A stretch of 64,000 bases of DNA. Source: Sporosarcina sp. (GTDB taxonomy: Bacteria > Bacillota > Bacilli > Bacillales_A > Planococcaceae). How positions within the stretch are numbered: the first letter of the stretch is position 1; every line of letters starts with the position of its first letter. The stretch is from positions 1 to 64,000 of the forward strand of contig JAPFCR010000012.1 of assembly GCA_026169375.1 (NCBI GenBank). The letters are read 5' to 3'. Shown here piece by piece: positions 4,502 through 63,232 of the stretch. The translations under genes were made by a program, and so were the position numbers. The notes beneath the pieces are model-generated. The model was not told where the DNA came from. It made no database searches and was given only the letters and a program-made list of their open reading frames with translations.

Positions 4502-4945
4502 TTAAGCAGAACAAGAGCAACTTCCGCCACTCCCACAACCAGTTCCACAAGATGAGTCTGTAAAAAATCCATTTCCAGTTGGAACTTTAACGGATTCTGA
4601 TACACTTTTTCCAACGACCACTCCAATTTCATCGAACAATTGTTGAACATCATTTTCTGCTATGCGAAGCGCTGCGATTTTCTCATTTAAATCTAACGCT
4701 CTTTTGCGTAAACGAATATCTTTCATCACCGTTCTATAGTCTGGGTGATAGCGCCCAAAACGTTGAACCTCTTCATAACGTTCTTTTAAATAAGTGAACT
4801 CTTTAATTTCCTTGACAAGTTCATCATCTGAATAAACAGTCTCGCGCGCTTTATTATATCGATCAACGACTTCCGAAGAAGCCACTAATTGTACAAGTTC
4901 TTCTGCATGGTCGATGATGATTAACCATTCATCAGTAATAAGCAT
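4502..4945 (-). CDS. ylbF: YlbF/RicF, RicAFT (Y-complex) subunit
   Basis: In B. subtilis YlbF (RicF) joins YmcA (RicA) and YaaT (RicT) in a cytosolic complex needed for RNase Y-dependent mRNA maturation, competence, sporulation and biofilm formation. That complex carries [4Fe-4S] clusters. The 147-residue protein is helical and charged. Its C-terminal tail CGTGCGSGGSCSC has five cysteines and suits cluster ligation. Start choice: the ATG at 4945 lies 11 bases after GGAGG. The ATG at 4954 is only 2 bases from GGAGG, and the in-frame TTG at 4963 has no Shine-Dalgarno site. Confidence 0.9.
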   Translation of the reverse strand: MLITDEWLIIIDHAEELVQLVASSEVVDRYNKARETVYSDDELVKEIKEFTYLKERYEEVQRFGRYHPDYRTVMKDIRLRKRALDLNEKIAALRIAENDVQQLFDEIGVVVGKSVSESVKVPTGNGFFTDSSCGTGCGSGGSCSCSA

Positions 4946-5035
4946 TAAATTCATCGCCTCCAATACATACTATCATACCAGATTAATGAAAGTCCGGGAA
5001 TAAGTAAGATTGGTCTTCATACACTCAAATTACTT

Positions 5036-6472
5036 TTACTTCTCTAATAAATATTGTTCTGCGATGTCTTTGTCTGAAAAAGGATAGACTTTCCCACCAA
5101 TTTGCTGTGTTTTTTCATGACCTTTTCCAGCGATTACAACAATATCTTTATCTTGAGCTTTAGTAATGGCTTTTTGAATGGCTTTTTTCCGATCAATTTC
5201 AATATCGTACATTGTATTTGGAAGAATTCCTTCTACAACGTCATTGATAATTTGTACAGGATCTTCATAGCGTGGGTTATCAGAGGTAACAATCACCATC
5301 GTTGCATATCGACTTGCCACTTCCCCCATTTTTTTTCGCTTTCCTTGGTCGCGATCCCCGCCACATCCAAAAACGACAATGATGTTGCGTTGACAAGCTT
5401 CATCCAGCGACTGAAGTACTGTTTCAAGTGCATCGGGTGTATGTGCATAATCGATCATAACTGTCACCCCACTTCTCTCAATTCTTTCCATTCTTCCTTC
5501 TGGGAGTGTTAAACGTCTAACGGGGGCTTCTATTTTTTTAAAAGTATAAGAAAGGACATCTAATGTGCTAATGGCTGCAAGTACATTGAGTTGATTGAAA
5601 TTGGCCATCTTTTTGAGTTTGATCTCTGACTGGCCTGTTGGTGTTTTCAACATCATATATGCATTTTTTTTGATCAGTTGAAAATCGGCTTGATTCGCTT
5701 CTCCAAAATAAATGGATTTCTTTATTGCTGTTTGTGCAAGCTTCATGCATTGTTCATCATCGCGATTGACAATCACGGTGTCTGCCATTTGAATGAGTCG
5801 TTTTTTCGCTTGTAAATAAGCTTCCTGACTGCCATGTTCATCATAATGATCTTCGCCAATATTTAATAATAGACCAAGGTCAATCTCACAATGCGTCAGT
5901 CGCTCTGTTGATAAACCAAGAGAAGAAGCTTCCATTACGACATGTGTGACACCATTTTTTTCACATTCAGCTAATAACGGATGTAAATACTCTGCCGGTA
6001 ATGTAGTCATCTGAGGCGTCTCTAAGCTCGTTTTCACCCCATCAACTAAAACACCTAACGTCCCAAGAACGGCAGCTTTAACACTCACACTTTTTAATAA
6101 TTGCCCAATAAAATGCGACACAGTTGTTTTACCATTCGTTCCTGTTACCGCAATGATTGTGAGTCGCTCTGATGGATTCCCTGCTAATCTTGCGCTTGCA
6201 TACGACAAGAAACGTCTACCATTCGGAACAACAATTACAGGTACTTCAAGATAAATTGGCATTGTTCGATCAACAACAATTGCCGATGCACCTAATCGAA
6301 TTGCCTCTTCAATATAACTGAACCCATCTTCACAGTTACCTTTTCGAGCAACAAATAAAAAGCCTGGTTTCACACGCTTAGAATGTTCTGTAACACCCTT
6401 TATAGGAAGTTTAAATGTATTTCCAATAAATGTACACGGCCAATCTTTTAATAATTCATGTAAAAGTAACAC
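5036..6472 (-). CDS. Second MurE-type UDP-MurNAc-dipeptide ligase (DNPR, diaminopimelate signature)
   Basis: Mur ligase of about 478 residues with N-terminal, central ATPase (TGTNGKTT P-loop, starting near residue 109) and C-terminal domains. MurE adds the third amino acid to UDP-MurNAc-L-Ala-D-Glu. The DNPR motif (about 398-401) and GKGHE are the classic meso-diaminopimelate recognition features. Start: an in-frame ATG at 6493 lacks a ribosome site, whereas AAGGAG followed by six bases leads to GTG at 6472, giving the expected LLLHELLKD N-terminus. A second MurE lies at 61738-63219. This copy is divergent from a stand-alone aspartokinase, and a SigE-like promoter lies upstream. I infer a role in spore cortex precursor synthesis; this is unproven. 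Confidence 0.85.
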   Translation of the reverse strand: MLLLHELLKDWPCTFIGNTFKLPIKGVTEHSKRVKPGFLFVARKGNCEDGFSYIEEAIRLGASAIVVDRTMPIYLEVPVIVVPNGRRFLSYASARLAGNPSERLTIIAVTGTNGKTTVSHFIGQLLKSVSVKAAVLGTLGVLVDGVKTSLETPQMTTLPAEYLHPLLAECEKNGVTHVVMEASSLGLSTERLTHCEIDLGLLLNIGEDHYDEHGSQEAYLQAKKRLIQMADTVIVNRDDEQCMKLAQTAIKKSIYFGEANQADFQLIKKNAYMMLKTPTGQSEIKLKKMANFNQLNVLAAISTLDVLSYTFKKIEAPVRRLTLPEGRMERIERSGVTVMIDYAHTPDALETVLQSLDEACQRNIIVVFGCGGDRDQGKRKKMGEVASRYATMVIVTSDNPRYEDPVQIINDVVEGILPNTMYDIEIDRKKAIQKAITKAQDKDIVVIAGKGHEKTQQIGGKVYPFSDKDIAEQYLLEK

Positions 6473-6605
6473 ATCTATCTCCTTCCCGAACATTTTATAA
6501 AGAAACGAATATATTATAAAGAACGAGGCACTTTGTTTAATAAAATTTTATATTCCTTTGTTGACTAGCATTGAGAACTTAAACAATTGATTGCCTGTTC
6601 AATCT

Positions 6606-6633
6606 ATCGTATGAACTAAATGTTTCGAATGAC
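6606..6633 (-). promoter_or_regulatory. Candidate sporulation (SigE-like) promoter for the second murE
   Basis: On the minus strand, GTCATTC (6633-6627), 13 bp, CATACGAT (6613-6606). The -10 differs by one base from the SigE consensus CATACAAT, and CATACGATA also fits the SigK -10 (CATAnnnTA). It predicts a leader of about 125 nt. Read by eye; not a scored match. Confidence 0.35.
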
Positions 6634-6656
6634 ACGAAGAAAGTTGGGAGACTTTT

Positions 6657-7388
6657 ATGATTGTACAAAAATTTGGCGGTATTGCGATGAAATGTGAGAA
6701 AATGAGGACTTCTTGCATGAAACACATCCAAGCCGCTTTACAAAAGCATAAGAAAATTGTCGTTGTTGTCTCTGCTATCGGACGATTAGGAGATCCTTAT
6801 GCTACAGATAGCCTAATAAACCTTTCCAAATCTCTTTCTGCTAATCCTGTTGCTAAGGACCTGATTGCCTCTTGTGGTGAAGTAATCGCAGCTTCTGTCC
6901 TTTCTGCGGAACTACAACATTTTGGTATTCAGAACGAAATCTTGCATGGTAAACAAACAGGGATTGTTACAGCGGGGAATTTCGGTGATGCGATAATCGA
7001 TTCCATTCACCCTACATTTATTTTACAAGCTTTAAAGGAAAATGATTGTGTCATCATTCCCGGTTTCCAAGGGATGAACAAACAAGGACAAATGATGACG
7101 TTAGGAAGGGGCGGGAGTGATTTAACAGCGGTCGCACTAGCAAATGCAATCCAAGCATCGCATGTTGAATTTTTCAAAGACGTTCCTGGTGTACTAACTG
7201 GCGACCCTACTGTCGTTTCTACTTATGAAAAATTTGATTATTTAAGCTTTGATCAACTTCTAGCTTTATTAAATACGGATAATTCTATTGTCCAAAAAAG
7301 AGCCATTTGCCTTGCAAAAGAAAAAGCGATTCCTCTATATGTGAGAGGAATCGCTACTAATGAAGCAGGTACTTGGATTTCAAGTTAA
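6657..7388 (+). CDS. Stand-alone aspartokinase catalytic domain without ACT domains
   Basis: 243 residues covering only the amino-acid kinase fold. Aspartokinase features are visible: KFGG at the N-terminus, SCGE near 89-92, GRGGSDLTA near 149-157 and DVPGVLTGDP near 175-184. Typical aspartokinases have about 400 or more residues, with C-terminal ACT domains for lysine, threonine or diaminopimelate feedback; these are wholly absent. If active it would phosphorylate L-aspartate without feedback control, feeding the diaminopimelate and dipicolinate pathway. It is divergent from the DNPR-type MurE and convergent with ylbC, with 1 bp between stop codons. An alternative is a kinase with another amino acid substrate. 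Confidence 0.8.
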   Translation: MIVQKFGGIAMKCEKMRTSCMKHIQAALQKHKKIVVVVSAIGRLGDPYATDSLINLSKSLSANPVAKDLIASCGEVIAASVLSAELQHFGIQNEILHGKQTGIVTAGNFGDAIIDSIHPTFILQALKENDCVIIPGFQGMNKQGQMMTLGRGGSDLTAVALANAIQASHVEFFKDVPGVLTGDPTVVSTYEKFDYLSFDQLLALLNTDNSIVQKRAICLAKEKAIPLYVRGIATNEAGTWISS

Positions 7389-7389
7389 C

Positions 7390-8451
7390 TTATTTTTGAT
7401 TGGGATCTTCTAATGACGATTTGATAAACGTTTGCGTGAAATAGTTGCCGTAAACACCAGTGCCTAAATGCGTAAAATCCTTCGTTAACATCGTTTTTCG
7501 ATGAACACTTGAATTTAACCAACCATGCACCGCTTCGATTGCGTCATCATAATCAAAAGCGGTGTTTTCTCCTGCTTTTTTATGGTCAATTTCCGCATTT
7601 TTTAAACGCTTTGTTAAATGCTCATTTTTGATTTCATCTTCTATTGAAACATTTTCAAGGGCTAGCTGCTCACTATTCTTTTGTGAAAATTGATTGAGTT
7701 CATAAGTACTTTGTAATTCATTCAATTGATGTTTCATTCTCATCAAATTTGTCAACTCAAAGATTTGTCTTTTAATAGTTTCATTCACTTCAAGTTGCAT
7801 TGTAGACGATAGCGGTTTTGAAACGAGTAGTTCCCCCATATAAGTCATTTCATATGGCTGATGTAAAACTAATGTCTCCGAGTCAATAAATCGCACACCT
7901 TGTAACTGACCTTCTTCTTCATCAATATACAACTGCGCAAATAAATTCTGATAAATAATTAAAGGTCTTCTATGCATATCATCACTGTTTAAAGAAAATG
8001 TATAAATGTTCTCACCAATATTTACATCCACTTCAGAACCGACAATTGTAAAACGATAAATATCATCGATGCTTTGACTAATTTCAAACGGGGCTATATT
8101 CGTTTGTTCATCTCCAGTGTATAATTGATTAATCATTCCTTCATGTGTAACGCCAACCATTAAATGAAGATCATCTTTATAAATCCACCAATCATAATGA
8201 TAATGGGATGGCTCAATACGCTCTGGTTGCCCGAATGCTTCGACTAACGCATCTACATGCTTTCCAACATACATTGAAAGACCTTCGTCAGGCCTTGACG
8301 TTTGAGGAATCGCTGAACCAATTCCTTTCTCTTCAACTGGGACAGCCCGACCTTGTTTTACGGGTGATTCTAATGGTTCGTTTTCTGTCACTCGATTTCC
8401 AGTAATATAAAAAATCAATAGAACAGCAAGACATATTATGGCTATTCTCAT
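7390..8451 (-). CDS. ylbC: YlbC-like CAP-domain (SCP/PR1) exported protein
   Basis: About 353 residues. An N-terminal hydrophobic segment (IAIICLAVLLIFYITG) anchors or exports it. The middle is a CAP-associated domain (GKHVDALVEAFGQPERIEPS onward), and the C-terminal ~120 residues are a CAP domain ending in the typical LNSSVHRKTMLTKDFTHLG block. Extracellular function is unknown; B. subtilis YlbC has the same arrangement and position. Start: a TTG at 8481 is in frame but lacks a ribosome site. The ATG at 8451 follows GGAAAAG and gives the basic-hydrophobic N-terminus. A TATAAT on the minus strand (8528-8523) may be its -10 box. Confidence 0.85.
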   Translation of the reverse strand: MRIAIICLAVLLIFYITGNRVTENEPLESPVKQGRAVPVEEKGIGSAIPQTSRPDEGLSMYVGKHVDALVEAFGQPERIEPSHYHYDWWIYKDDLHLMVGVTHEGMINQLYTGDEQTNIAPFEISQSIDDIYRFTIVGSEVDVNIGENIYTFSLNSDDMHRRPLIIYQNLFAQLYIDEEEGQLQGVRFIDSETLVLHQPYEMTYMGELLVSKPLSSTMQLEVNETIKRQIFELTNLMRMKHQLNELQSTYELNQFSQKNSEQLALENVSIEDEIKNEHLTKRLKNAEIDHKKAGENTAFDYDDAIEAVHGWLNSSVHRKTMLTKDFTHLGTGVYGNYFTQTFIKSSLEDPNQK

Positions 8452-8529
8452 AAACTTTTCCAACAAAATCCCTGCTTTCAACTTAATGTCAAGAATCTAT
8501 TTTAAGACATTGATAAACGGCTATTATAC

Positions 8530-60079: not shown

Positions 60080-61654
60080 TTATAATAAACTATACAAGTC
60101 AATCTCAGGATGTTTGTCTTGGAACCAACGCATTGAGAAATCATTTTCAAATAAGAACACGAGTTGGTCATAACGATCTTTTACGAGCATTGCACGTTGC
60201 CCCGCCATCGTTTCGGTGACATCTTTTTCATTATGAATCCAACGCGCTACTTTAGATCCGATATTTTCCATTTGTACTTCTACGTTGTATTCATTTTTCA
60301 TCCGATGTTCAAATACTTCAAACTGTAATTGTCCGACAGCACCAAGTAATACTTCCTCTGTATGAAGCGTTCGGTAATATTGAATGGCACCTTCTTGGAC
60401 AAGTTGTAAAATTCCTTTATGGAAATGCTTCGACTTCATCACGTTTTTTGCCGTTACTCTTACAAATAGTTCGGGCGTAAATTGTGGCAAAGAAGCAAAT
60501 GAAAAATTCGACTTTCCGCCAATGACCGTATCACCGATTTGATAATTTCCTGTATCATGCAAGCCAATAATATCTCCAGCGACTGCTTCATTCACTGTTT
60601 CTCGGTCATCTGCCAGAAATTGGGTTGTTTGCGTCAATTTAAATGAACGATCAATTCTTGGTACTTTTACCGTCATACCTCTATTAAATGCACCTGATAC
60701 AATTCGAACAAAAGCAATACGGTCTCGGTGGGCTGGATTCATATTCGCTTGGATTTTAAAAATAAAACCCGTAAATTCATCTTTTTGCGGATCAATTGCT
60801 TCTTCCTCCGTTGTTAAGCGTGCTTGTGGCGCTGGTGCAAATTGTAAAAATGTTTCTAAGAATGTTTGGACACCAAAATTCGTGAGTGCACTTCCGAAAA
60901 AGACTGGCGTTAACTCACCTTTTGCGACTCGTTCTTCGGAAAATTCATTCCCTGCCTCATTTAACAATAAAACATCTTCTAGCGCTTGTTCATAATAAGC
61001 ATTATCTGTCATCGGATGCGCTTCAGCTAATTCTCCCTCATCATTAAGTGCTAAGAAACGGTCTTCTCCTTCAGCGCGTGATTGCTCAATACGATGATTG
61101 AATCGGTCATAAATCCCAAGAAACTCTTTTCCCATCCCAATTGGCCAGTTCATTGCATAAGACTCAATTCCAAGCACTTCTTCTAATTCTTCCATTAAAT
61201 CTAAAGGTGCTTTCCCTTCACGATCCATTTTATTAATAAACGTGAAAATCGGAATGCCGCGCATACGACAAACTTTAAATAATTTAATCGTTTGCGGTTC
61301 TACGCCTCGCCCAACGTCAATCATCATGACTGCTGCATCTACTGCCATCAGCGTTCGATACGTATCTTCACTGAAATCTTCGTGACCCGGTGTATCTAAA
61401 ATATTAATTCTTATACCTTCATATTCAAACTGCATCACTGAAGATGTGACTGAAATTCCTCTTTGCTTTTCAATTTCCATCCAGTCAGAAGTTGCATATT
61501 TCCCAGTTTTTCTTCCTTTAACTGTACCCGCATCTCGGATTGCTCCGCCGAAGTAGAGTAGCTTCTCTGTAATTGTAGTTTTCCCAGCGTCAGGATGCGA
61601 AATAATCGCAAAGGTACGTCTGTCGTTAATTTCTTCATCAATTGACTTACTCAT
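60080..61654 (-). CDS. prfC: Peptide chain release factor 3
   Basis: 524-residue translational GTPase that recycles RF1/RF2 after peptide release. G1 [19 protein letters not shown], the RF3-specific insertion [37 protein letters not shown] and NKMDREGK are present. Full length. ATG start, 83 bp after murE on the same strand. The murE-prfC neighbourhood is known from staphylococci. Confidence 0.97.
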
Positions 61655-61737: not shown

Positions 61738-63219
61738 TTACTTTATTTCTTTTGCTTTAAACTTTTTTGTCGCTTCTTCTAGTGCGATTGCTGCATCCGA
61801 ATGTGGATACTTTTCGCGACCAATAATTTGGAAATCTTCATGACCTTTCCCTGCGAATATAATAATATCATCTTCTTCCGCAACTGCAATGGCATGACGA
61901 ACCGCATCCACTCGATCACCAATACAAGCGTAATTTTTATGTTGCATGCCTGCTTCAAGTTCCGATAAAATCGTTTCATAAGGCTCATCACGTGGATCAT
62001 CTGTCGTTAAGACGACATAATCTGCTTTCGATGCTTCTTCTGCCATAATTGGCCGTTTTACCCGGTCTCGATTTCCGCCTGTGCCAATTAAAAAGATAAT
62101 TTTATTCTTTTTATATGGAAGCACCGCATCAATCGCTTTCTCAATCGCATCCGCCGTATGTGCATAGTCGATATACATCGTAACTGGTAAATTTGTTTCC
62201 ACTTTCTCCATACGTCCTGCAATCGGCCTGATTTCCGCTAAAAAAGCGACAATGCTTTCAATTGATAGCCCTTTTGCATATAAAGCTGCTGTCGTCGCAA
62301 GCGCATTCGAGACGCTAAACTCGCCAATTAACTTCATCTCCACATGAAAGACGCCTTCAGGTGAAACGAGTGTAAACGAAGTACCATCTGCTCTTAGTCG
62401 AATGTCTTTTCCGTGAAAATCAGCTTCATGGTGAATCCCATATGTTAAAATTGGATAACTTGTTTTCTCGGAAAACTTCTCATGCCATGGATCATCGATA
62501 TTCACAACTGCATATTTTCGTTCTTCTAAATTTTGACCGAGTTGTGCAAATAATAATCCTTTCGCATCTCCGTAATTTTCCATCGTTCCGTGAAAGTCTA
62601 AGTGATCATGTGTTAAATTTGTGAAAATCGCGATGTCAAATTCCGTTCCAGCTAACCGTCCTTCGACGAGTCCGTGAGAAGATACTTCCATCGTCATCGT
62701 CTCACAGCCTTCACGTGCAGCTTGTGCAATTATTGACTGCGTTGCCAGTACATGTCCCGTTGTATTCTCAGTTTCATACAACGTTCCATTTAAATTAAAA
62801 CCAATTGTTCCTGAAACAGCAGACTTTTCATTCGCCGCTTGTAAAATCGAATGAATCATACCACTGACACTTGTTTTCCCGTTCGTTCCTGTCACACCAA
62901 TCATCGTCATTTTTTTCGATGGGTAGTGGAAAAAACGTGGTGCCAACAAGCCAATTGCACGGGATGTATTCGGTACTGTCACAACAGCAACTTTTTCTAC
63001 ATCAACAACAACCGGCTGCGATGCAACAATAACACGTGCCCCGTTGTCTACTGCCTGTTCGACAAAATCATGTCCGTCTACAGTAAACCCTTCAATGCAC
63101 ACAAAAACACCACCAGGTTGAACAGCACGTGAATCGACTTCGATGTCAGGTACCACGGCTGGTAATGTTCCTGTAATCTGTTGAATCGGTAATATTGAAA
63201 ATAACTCTTTTGTATCCAT
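61738..63219 (-). CDS. murE: MurE UDP-MurNAc-tripeptide synthetase (vegetative copy)
   Basis: 493-residue Mur ligase with P-loop TGTNGKTS, HLD-type TNLTHDHLDFHG (carbamylated-lysine region follows) and C-terminal GKGHED. It adds the third stem-peptide residue during peptidoglycan precursor synthesis. The specificity motif reads DDPR (about 407-410), not the canonical diaminopimelate DNPR of the paralogue at 5036, so it may accept L-lysine; this is not decidable by eye. Start: ATG at 63219, six bases after GGAGG. It lies outside any cell-division gene cluster, next to prfC as in staphylococci. Confidence 0.93.
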   Translation of the reverse strand: MDTKELFSILPIQQITGTLPAVVPDIEVDSRAVQPGGVFVCIEGFTVDGHDFVEQAVDNGARVIVASQPVVVDVEKVAVVTVPNTSRAIGLLAPRFFHYPSKKMTMIGVTGTNGKTSVSGMIHSILQAANEKSAVSGTIGFNLNGTLYETENTTGHVLATQSIIAQAAREGCETMTMEVSSHGLVEGRLAGTEFDIAIFTNLTHDHLDFHGTMENYGDAKGLLFAQLGQNLEERKYAVVNIDDPWHEKFSEKTSYPILTYGIHHEADFHGKDIRLRADGTSFTLVSPEGVFHVEMKLIGEFSVSNALATTAALYAKGLSIESIVAFLAEIRPIAGRMEKVETNLPVTMYIDYAHTADAIEKAIDAVLPYKKNKIIFLIGTGGNRDRVKRPIMAEEASKADYVVLTTDDPRDEPYETILSELEAGMQHKNYACIGDRVDAVRHAIAVAEEDDIIIFAGKGHEDFQIIGREKYPHSDAAIALEEATKKFKAKEIK

Positions 63220-63232
63220 CAAAATCCTCCAT

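Follow-up and report, generated by a model that had tools for sequence, protein, structure and literature searches.

According to Linnett and Tipper in the 1970s, Bacillus (Lysinibacillus) sphaericus reportedly builds a lysine-type vegetative wall and a DAP-type (diaminopimelate) cortex, and a second, DAP-adding ligase activity is said to appear at its sporulation and to have been assigned to the mother cell. While the sphaericus activity is known as an enzyme activity, here we describe a gene, its genomic slot, a promoter element and a family-wide co-loss with spoIVA. The described proteins closest to those of our locus are the DAP-type MurE of Bacillaceae (Neobacillus, Bacillus and Halalkalibacter), the lysine-adding MurE of S. 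aureus (4c12) and of T. maritima (4bub), and, for the kinase, DapG of the dpaA-dpaB-asd-dapG-dapA operon. Among the matches listed from the open literature (most subscription journals fall outside it), no title or abstract opening mentions a murE for sporulation or a sporulation aspartokinase lacking ACT domains. An earlier sequence-only reading of this DNA knew of no genetic description of such a pair.

The window (the whole stretch of Sporosarcina sp. DNA that was analysed, 64,000 nucleotides) contains the following features.

4502..4963, minus strand: ylbF homologue, a fixed flank of the slot
5036..6493, minus strand: murE2, predicted DAP-adding UDP-MurNAc-tripeptide ligase, sporulation-associated (485 aa)
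6494..6656, no strand: divergent intergenic region between murE2 and the kinase gene (163 bases)
6605..6634, minus strand: promoter-like sequence for murE2 with conservation across relatives (TGTCATT, 14 bases, CATACGATA)
6657..7388, plus strand: solo aspartokinase catalytic domain, DapG-derived (243 aa, no ACT domains)
7390..8481, minus strand: gene for a CAP-domain protein (presumably ylbC, a name given by position), the other fixed flank of the slot
61738..63222, minus strand: murE1, a different MurE with DDPR, predicted to be the vegetative ligase that adds lysine (494 aa), adjoining prfC (60080-61654)

The sequence-only reading had described a full-length second MurE with a canonical DNPR, a divergent 243-residue aspartokinase domain without ACT domains and a different MurE at 61738, and all three descriptions hold. 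The 485-residue product of murE2 has three Mur-ligase domains, each above its Pfam cut-off in a domain search of the window, with the P-loop GTNGKT at residues 118-123, DNPR at 405-408 and GKGHE at 456-460. The kinase at 6657-7388 carries an AA_kinase domain at residues 1-230, no ACT domain was found in it by the domain search, and the 405-position model NF006068 matches it over positions 3-246 only (251.7 bits against a cut-off of 474). The ligase at 61738-63222 has 494 residues and the motif DDPR. The window's own genome (90% complete) has six matches with Mur-ligase domains, two of which are MurE1 and MurE2.

We consider it probable that MurE2 is the mother-cell DAP-adding ligase for the cortex in lysine-type spore formers, its specificity and its expression both being read from sequence. 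MurE1 would add lysine in the vegetative wall; a SigE/SigK-type promoter would turn MurE2 on in the mother cell, where this sporulation-specific UDP-MurNAc-L-Ala-D-Glu:meso-DAP ligase would be the source of the cortex precursor, and the same precursor pathway would then yield DAP-peptidoglycan around the forespore. The solo kinase, a DapG catalytic domain that has lost the ACT (feedback) domains and lies beside murE2, would give more aspartyl-phosphate and with it more DAP and dipicolinate, without end-product inhibition. Such a role as a feedback-free flux booster, in which the kinase's activity and lack of regulation are deduced from sequence alone, we give slightly better than an even chance. 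The combined picture is evenly balanced: a spore-wall precursor module in which a second MurE lets one cell make two peptidoglycans, and in which a re-sited, feedback-stripped DapG frees the flow to DAP and dipicolinate only in sporulation.

As for the origin of the kinase, NF006068 stands for DapG because a Neobacillus match above its cut-off (L324) is the gene flanked by asd and dapA in the dpa operon, whose order there is dpaA-dpaB-asd-dapG-dapA-rnjB. The cut-off is passed by none of 151 genomes of the window's family, by all six outgroups and by one of 14 control genomes. In the window's genome, the order is dpaA-like, dpaB-like, asd, dapA and rnjB, with dapG gone from between asd and dapA, and gene lengths agree with a dapG-less operon in six of seven further family genomes (for genus g3, asd and dapA lie outside the stretch read). 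The DpaA-like protein of the family (L263; L318, 5632-6417; L254-L265) scores 40-88 bits against the TIGR02853 cut-off of 320, and its gene is followed by a dpaB-like flavoprotein gene. In a tree of catalytic domains built by a careful method (one DapG, L274, and one LysC, L278, were dropped for want of an open frame of the required length), a branch with 100/100 support unites the five DapG with 19 solo kinases, and the 13 LysC and eight AK3 fall outside it. We read the solo kinase from this placement as a truncated DapG, of DapG ancestry; it differs from DapG in consisting of nothing but the catalytic domain (237-275 aa among the rows of this tree), without ACT domains, and in lying beside murE2. 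The loss of the ACT domains suggests a loss of feedback.

The solo kinase is present in 57 of the 151 genomes, from six genera, and in all 57 it is divergent from MurE2 within about 200 bases (genome positions were compared by eye); in genus g5, MurE2 was likewise seen beside the kinase, over a shorter span than in the other genera. A 288-residue frame in G028, a short LysC-like match, was excluded from this count. The solo kinase was listed in none of the six other sporulating genera (of 12) and is thus optional; the sampled members of these six genera form one clade in the tree of neighbouring proteins (see below), together with two non-sporulating genera. The sequence-only reading had the pair supply both the cortex precursor and the flux for it: the MurE half is well supported by co-occurrence with spoIVA and by the promoter element (see below), while the module half is weakened by this optional kinase.

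The same absence from half of the sporulating genera would suit a solo kinase that is a pseudo-enzyme, or an enzyme that has switched substrate, retained for a partner or regulatory role. Position 174, which is Thr in 18/18 full-length DapG/LysC and in the AK3 group, is Lys in 19/19 solo kinases, so that activity is not assured, and the usual Arg-Glu before Asp68 is lost. Against this, K5, T50, E75, R151 and D155 (which we take to be substrate residues) are invariant in 18/18 rows (16 of them different), the predicted structure (mean pLDDT 92) has aspartokinases as its best structural matches, and dN/dS is 0.026-0.124 in 10 close pairs (NG86; dS above 1 in one pair). With the corresponding values for MurE2 at 0.034-0.156 (10 close pairs; NG86; dS above 1 in two pairs), both genes appear to evolve under purifying selection. 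We regard the pseudo-enzyme as a possible but less favoured explanation than the flux booster.

The sequence-only reading had also placed a SigE-like promoter at 6606-6633. Its location, its minus strand and its conservation in relatives were confirmed, but the -10 box suits SigE and SigK alike, so SigE is one of two candidate sigma factors. MurE2 has a conserved -10 of the CATANNNTA type plus a conserved upstream element, together presumably a promoter of the mother-cell type by consensus. Using the pattern NNC, 16 or 17 bases, CATANNNT[A/G], which had been loosened after the result for a stricter -10 (A or G allowed as the final base; C at -35), we found matches in 44 of the 50 upstream regions of MurE2, compared with 1/47 for ylbF, 3/29 for ylbC, 1/27 for GDPD, 1/22 each for rsmD, yugN and ctaG, 0/22 for ylbG and 4/35 for the kinase, all scored with the identical relaxed pattern. 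Since the rows in these counts are related, we also give the tally by genus: each of the 12 genera has at least one match. The stricter -10 alone is found in 40 of the 50 MurE2 regions (shuffles: mean 2.18, maximum 7). Upstream of the family's spoIVA genes (in B. subtilis, spoIVA is a SigE gene), the same type of -10 is found in 14/20 by a pattern fixed after viewing these regions, behind a different conserved upstream box; the six spoIVA genes without this -10 are from g3, g14, g10 and g18. In its -35 box MurE2 departs from spoIVA, and SigK matches this box no worse than SigE does. Scored with consensus strings, the SigE score of MurE2 (19.25) is hardly higher than those of neighbouring genes (17.5-19.4), and its SigK-type score is 15.0 against 12.2-13.5. 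We also tried the dpaA-like genes as a yardstick for SigK and rejected them, as CATANNNTA is found upstream in just 1/12, far from the start.

For the kinase, CATANNNTA is found upstream in 16/35, but its promoter cannot be judged from this, because the region searched also covers the beginning of MurE2. Inspection of 6494-6656 by eye showed another conserved block, GAATAYATTA (in the kinase sense), which many relatives have close to where MurE2 starts. Should this block be the -10 of the kinase, murE2 and the kinase would have promoters pointing towards each other, with transcripts that overlap at the 5' end.

MurE2 and MurE1 form separate clades with full support. MurE1 carries DDPR in 21/21 sequences. 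Its closest relative of solved structure is the lysine ligase of S. aureus, at 452 bits (323 for the runner-up); MurE2 scores just 172 bits against that enzyme. Among the four solved ligases aligned, three have DNPR, and the T. maritima lysine ligase has DDPR as in MurE1; MurE2 instead has DNPR, though it scores 262 bits to that same enzyme. MurE1 was found in 25 of 28 family genomes tested, in sporulators and non-sporulators alike; no orthologue was found in G004 (g4) or in G001 and G020 (both g2). G004, the only g4 genome tested, has MurE2 and no MurE1 orthologue, so its vegetative enzyme must be another. A divergent third MurE of 512-525 aa is present in 5/5 genomes of g4 and g2 (G004, G135, G041, G020 and G001; L335, L336, L332, L329 and L334), with SRSH (g4, 3/3) or SKSH or SKSD (g2) at the DNPR site and GCQGMD for GKGHE; it is possibly the vegetative ligase of these genera, and g4 retains MurE2 as well.

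From the motif residues we infer that MurE2 is specific for DAP. DN[PASC]R is retained in 28/28 MurE2 rows (27 of them different), and its Asn and Arg are presumably DAP-binding residues; R381, N406, R408 and E460 are invariant in 14/14 MurE2, at positions that we take to be DAP contacts in E. coli MurE. MurE2 also scores 460.2 bits (cut-off 373) with the NCBIfam DAP-ligase model NF001126 over profile positions 3-484 of 486, a model that alone gives no proof of DAP specificity, since a DDPR-bearing MurE (L333) clears it too. Overall similarity gives no pointer to DAP either, because the T. maritima lysine ligase, at 262 bits, is the second-best solved match of MurE2 (best 270; the next, a DAP ligase, 239). 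This match, together with the replacement of the Pro of DNPR by A, S or C in seven of the 27 different MurE2 (DNPR in the other 20) and the lack of a certain reading of specificity from the motif, would suit an enzyme that is sporulation-specific but puts lysine or ornithine into the germ-cell wall or a different layer of the spore, with DAP entering otherwise. We think this improbable, as the Asn and Arg are kept in every row, the DAP-ligase model is passed (a weak argument, as noted), MurE1, shared by sporulators and non-sporulators, already resembles a lysine enzyme, and a promoter of the mother-cell type suits the cortex and not the germ wall. The preferred reading is still that of a DAP-adding MurE2.

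In the tree that separates it from MurE1, MurE2 is a clade of its own (100/100) with branches longer than those of MurE1. Like the DAP-type MurE of Bacillaceae, it is a full-length three-domain ligase with DNPR, and it differs from them in sitting between ylbC and ylbF as a second MurE in the same genome. When MurE2 was constrained to group with the Bacillaceae/Listeria sequences and a copy from family f38, p-AU was 0.083; descent from the MurE of the division cluster is thus neither shown nor rejected. That f38 genome (G288; L327, L333), outside the window's family, carries, besides spoIVA, a MurE1-like ligase (58%) with DDPR and a MurE with DNPR. A further Mur-ligase gene lies 1.2 kb past the end of the frame of the latter, in the same orientation. 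This spacing seems to fit murE-mraY-murD of the division cluster, the neighbours being putative, and suggests a two-ligase solution with the DAP enzyme at its old place.

MurE2 lies between ylbC and ylbF in 20/20 positive loci (from 10 further genera), and likewise in the window (genus g1) and in S. highlanderae (L117, placed in Caryophanaceae by the tree listing). Genus g1 also contains G166, in which SpoIVA matches at the very place and with the very score seen in the S. highlanderae genome (G151); we accordingly assign the window to Sporosarcina as delimited by the database. The locus order is cta - ctaG - yugN - ylbC - [kinase] - MurE2 - ylbF - GDPD - ylbG - rsmD - coaD. In spoIVA-less genomes the slot is empty, with no match to MurE2 or the kinase at 1e-5 in any of 22 loci (of 34 such genomes in the first set); ylbF stays in 22/22 and ylbC in 21/22.

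In all co-occurrence counts, spoIVA is taken as the proxy for sporulation. The kinase was always found with MurE2 (57/57), and MurE2 follows spoIVA in 172 family genomes, of which 121 have both, 47 have neither and four, all of genus g2, have both eroding to differing degrees. The first set (151 genomes) has 113, 34 and four genomes in these categories, and the further set (21 genomes) has eight with both and 13 with neither. MurE2 was called present at a best E-value of at most 5e-93 (113/151 genomes); in the other 38 genomes the best value lies between 4e-50 and 2e-77, where MurE1 or other ligases also score. SpoIVA is present in 117 of the 151 genomes, including all 113 with MurE2 (in G099 as a contig-end piece only), and all 12 genera with spoIVA have MurE2, when g2 with its decaying spoIVA is set apart. 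Non-sporulating and DAP-type relatives, where the sequence-only reading would not expect it, gave no MurE2 in any of the 47 family genomes without spoIVA and no match around coaD in six outgroup Bacilli (both flanks of the slot were recognised in four; the Paenibacillus stretch has a 24% match to MurE1), so this check does not refute that reading. With spoIVA as proxy, MurE2 is restricted to spore formers. Two spoIVA-less genomes of genus g7 (G162 and G167) have two MurE-like matches each, with 34-36% identity to MurE2.

Single genomes can mislead in such counts, given that PMC3533761 describes a frameshifted spoIVA in the known spore former L. sphaericus C3-41. Sporulation of the family differs in other ways too, as several engulfment genes are missing from Planococcaceae according to PMC7924749.

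In a 52-row tree of seven neighbouring proteins of the sampled loci (quick method), the presence of MurE2 changes six times among 48 family rows, five times without g2. The count itself cannot show direction; the one common slot makes losses the likely direction of these changes. Genus g2 (L197-L200) has been caught in the midst of losing sporulation, with spoIVA and the MurE2/kinase pair at different stages of decay: G020 has an intact spoIVA, G038 and G054 an interrupted one and G001 a remnant. All four g2 slots hold remains: in G020 the open frames measure 436 residues for MurE2 (with GKGNE in place of GKGHE) and 223 residues for the kinase, and G001, G038 and G054 have pieces; G020 keeps its intact spoIVA despite a badly diverged MurE2 and kinase. 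It is very unlikely that the loss of MurE2 is mere genome decay in specialised lineages, with only an indirect match to sporulation: spoIVA and MurE2 could both vanish in shrinking genomes, and g2 genomes are small (2.6-2.8 Mb), but G031, a non-sporulator of 4.1 Mb, has no MurE2, the spoIVA-bearing G100 has kept it at 2.5 Mb, the flanking genes of the slot remain, presence changes six times on the tree and the promoter element is conserved.

If MurE2 is the cortex ligase, as we consider probable, a gene would be assigned to an enzyme activity reportedly known since the 1970s, and it would account for a DAP-type cortex in spore formers whose vegetative wall is of the lysine type. For the family, MurE2 is a marker that accompanies spoIVA in about six losses (the likely direction of change), and the solo kinase may be a natural case of an aspartokinase that has shed its feedback domains. 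The chemistry of the cortex also becomes testable in these bacteria, as removal of one non-vegetative gene should abolish the cortex and leave growth unharmed.
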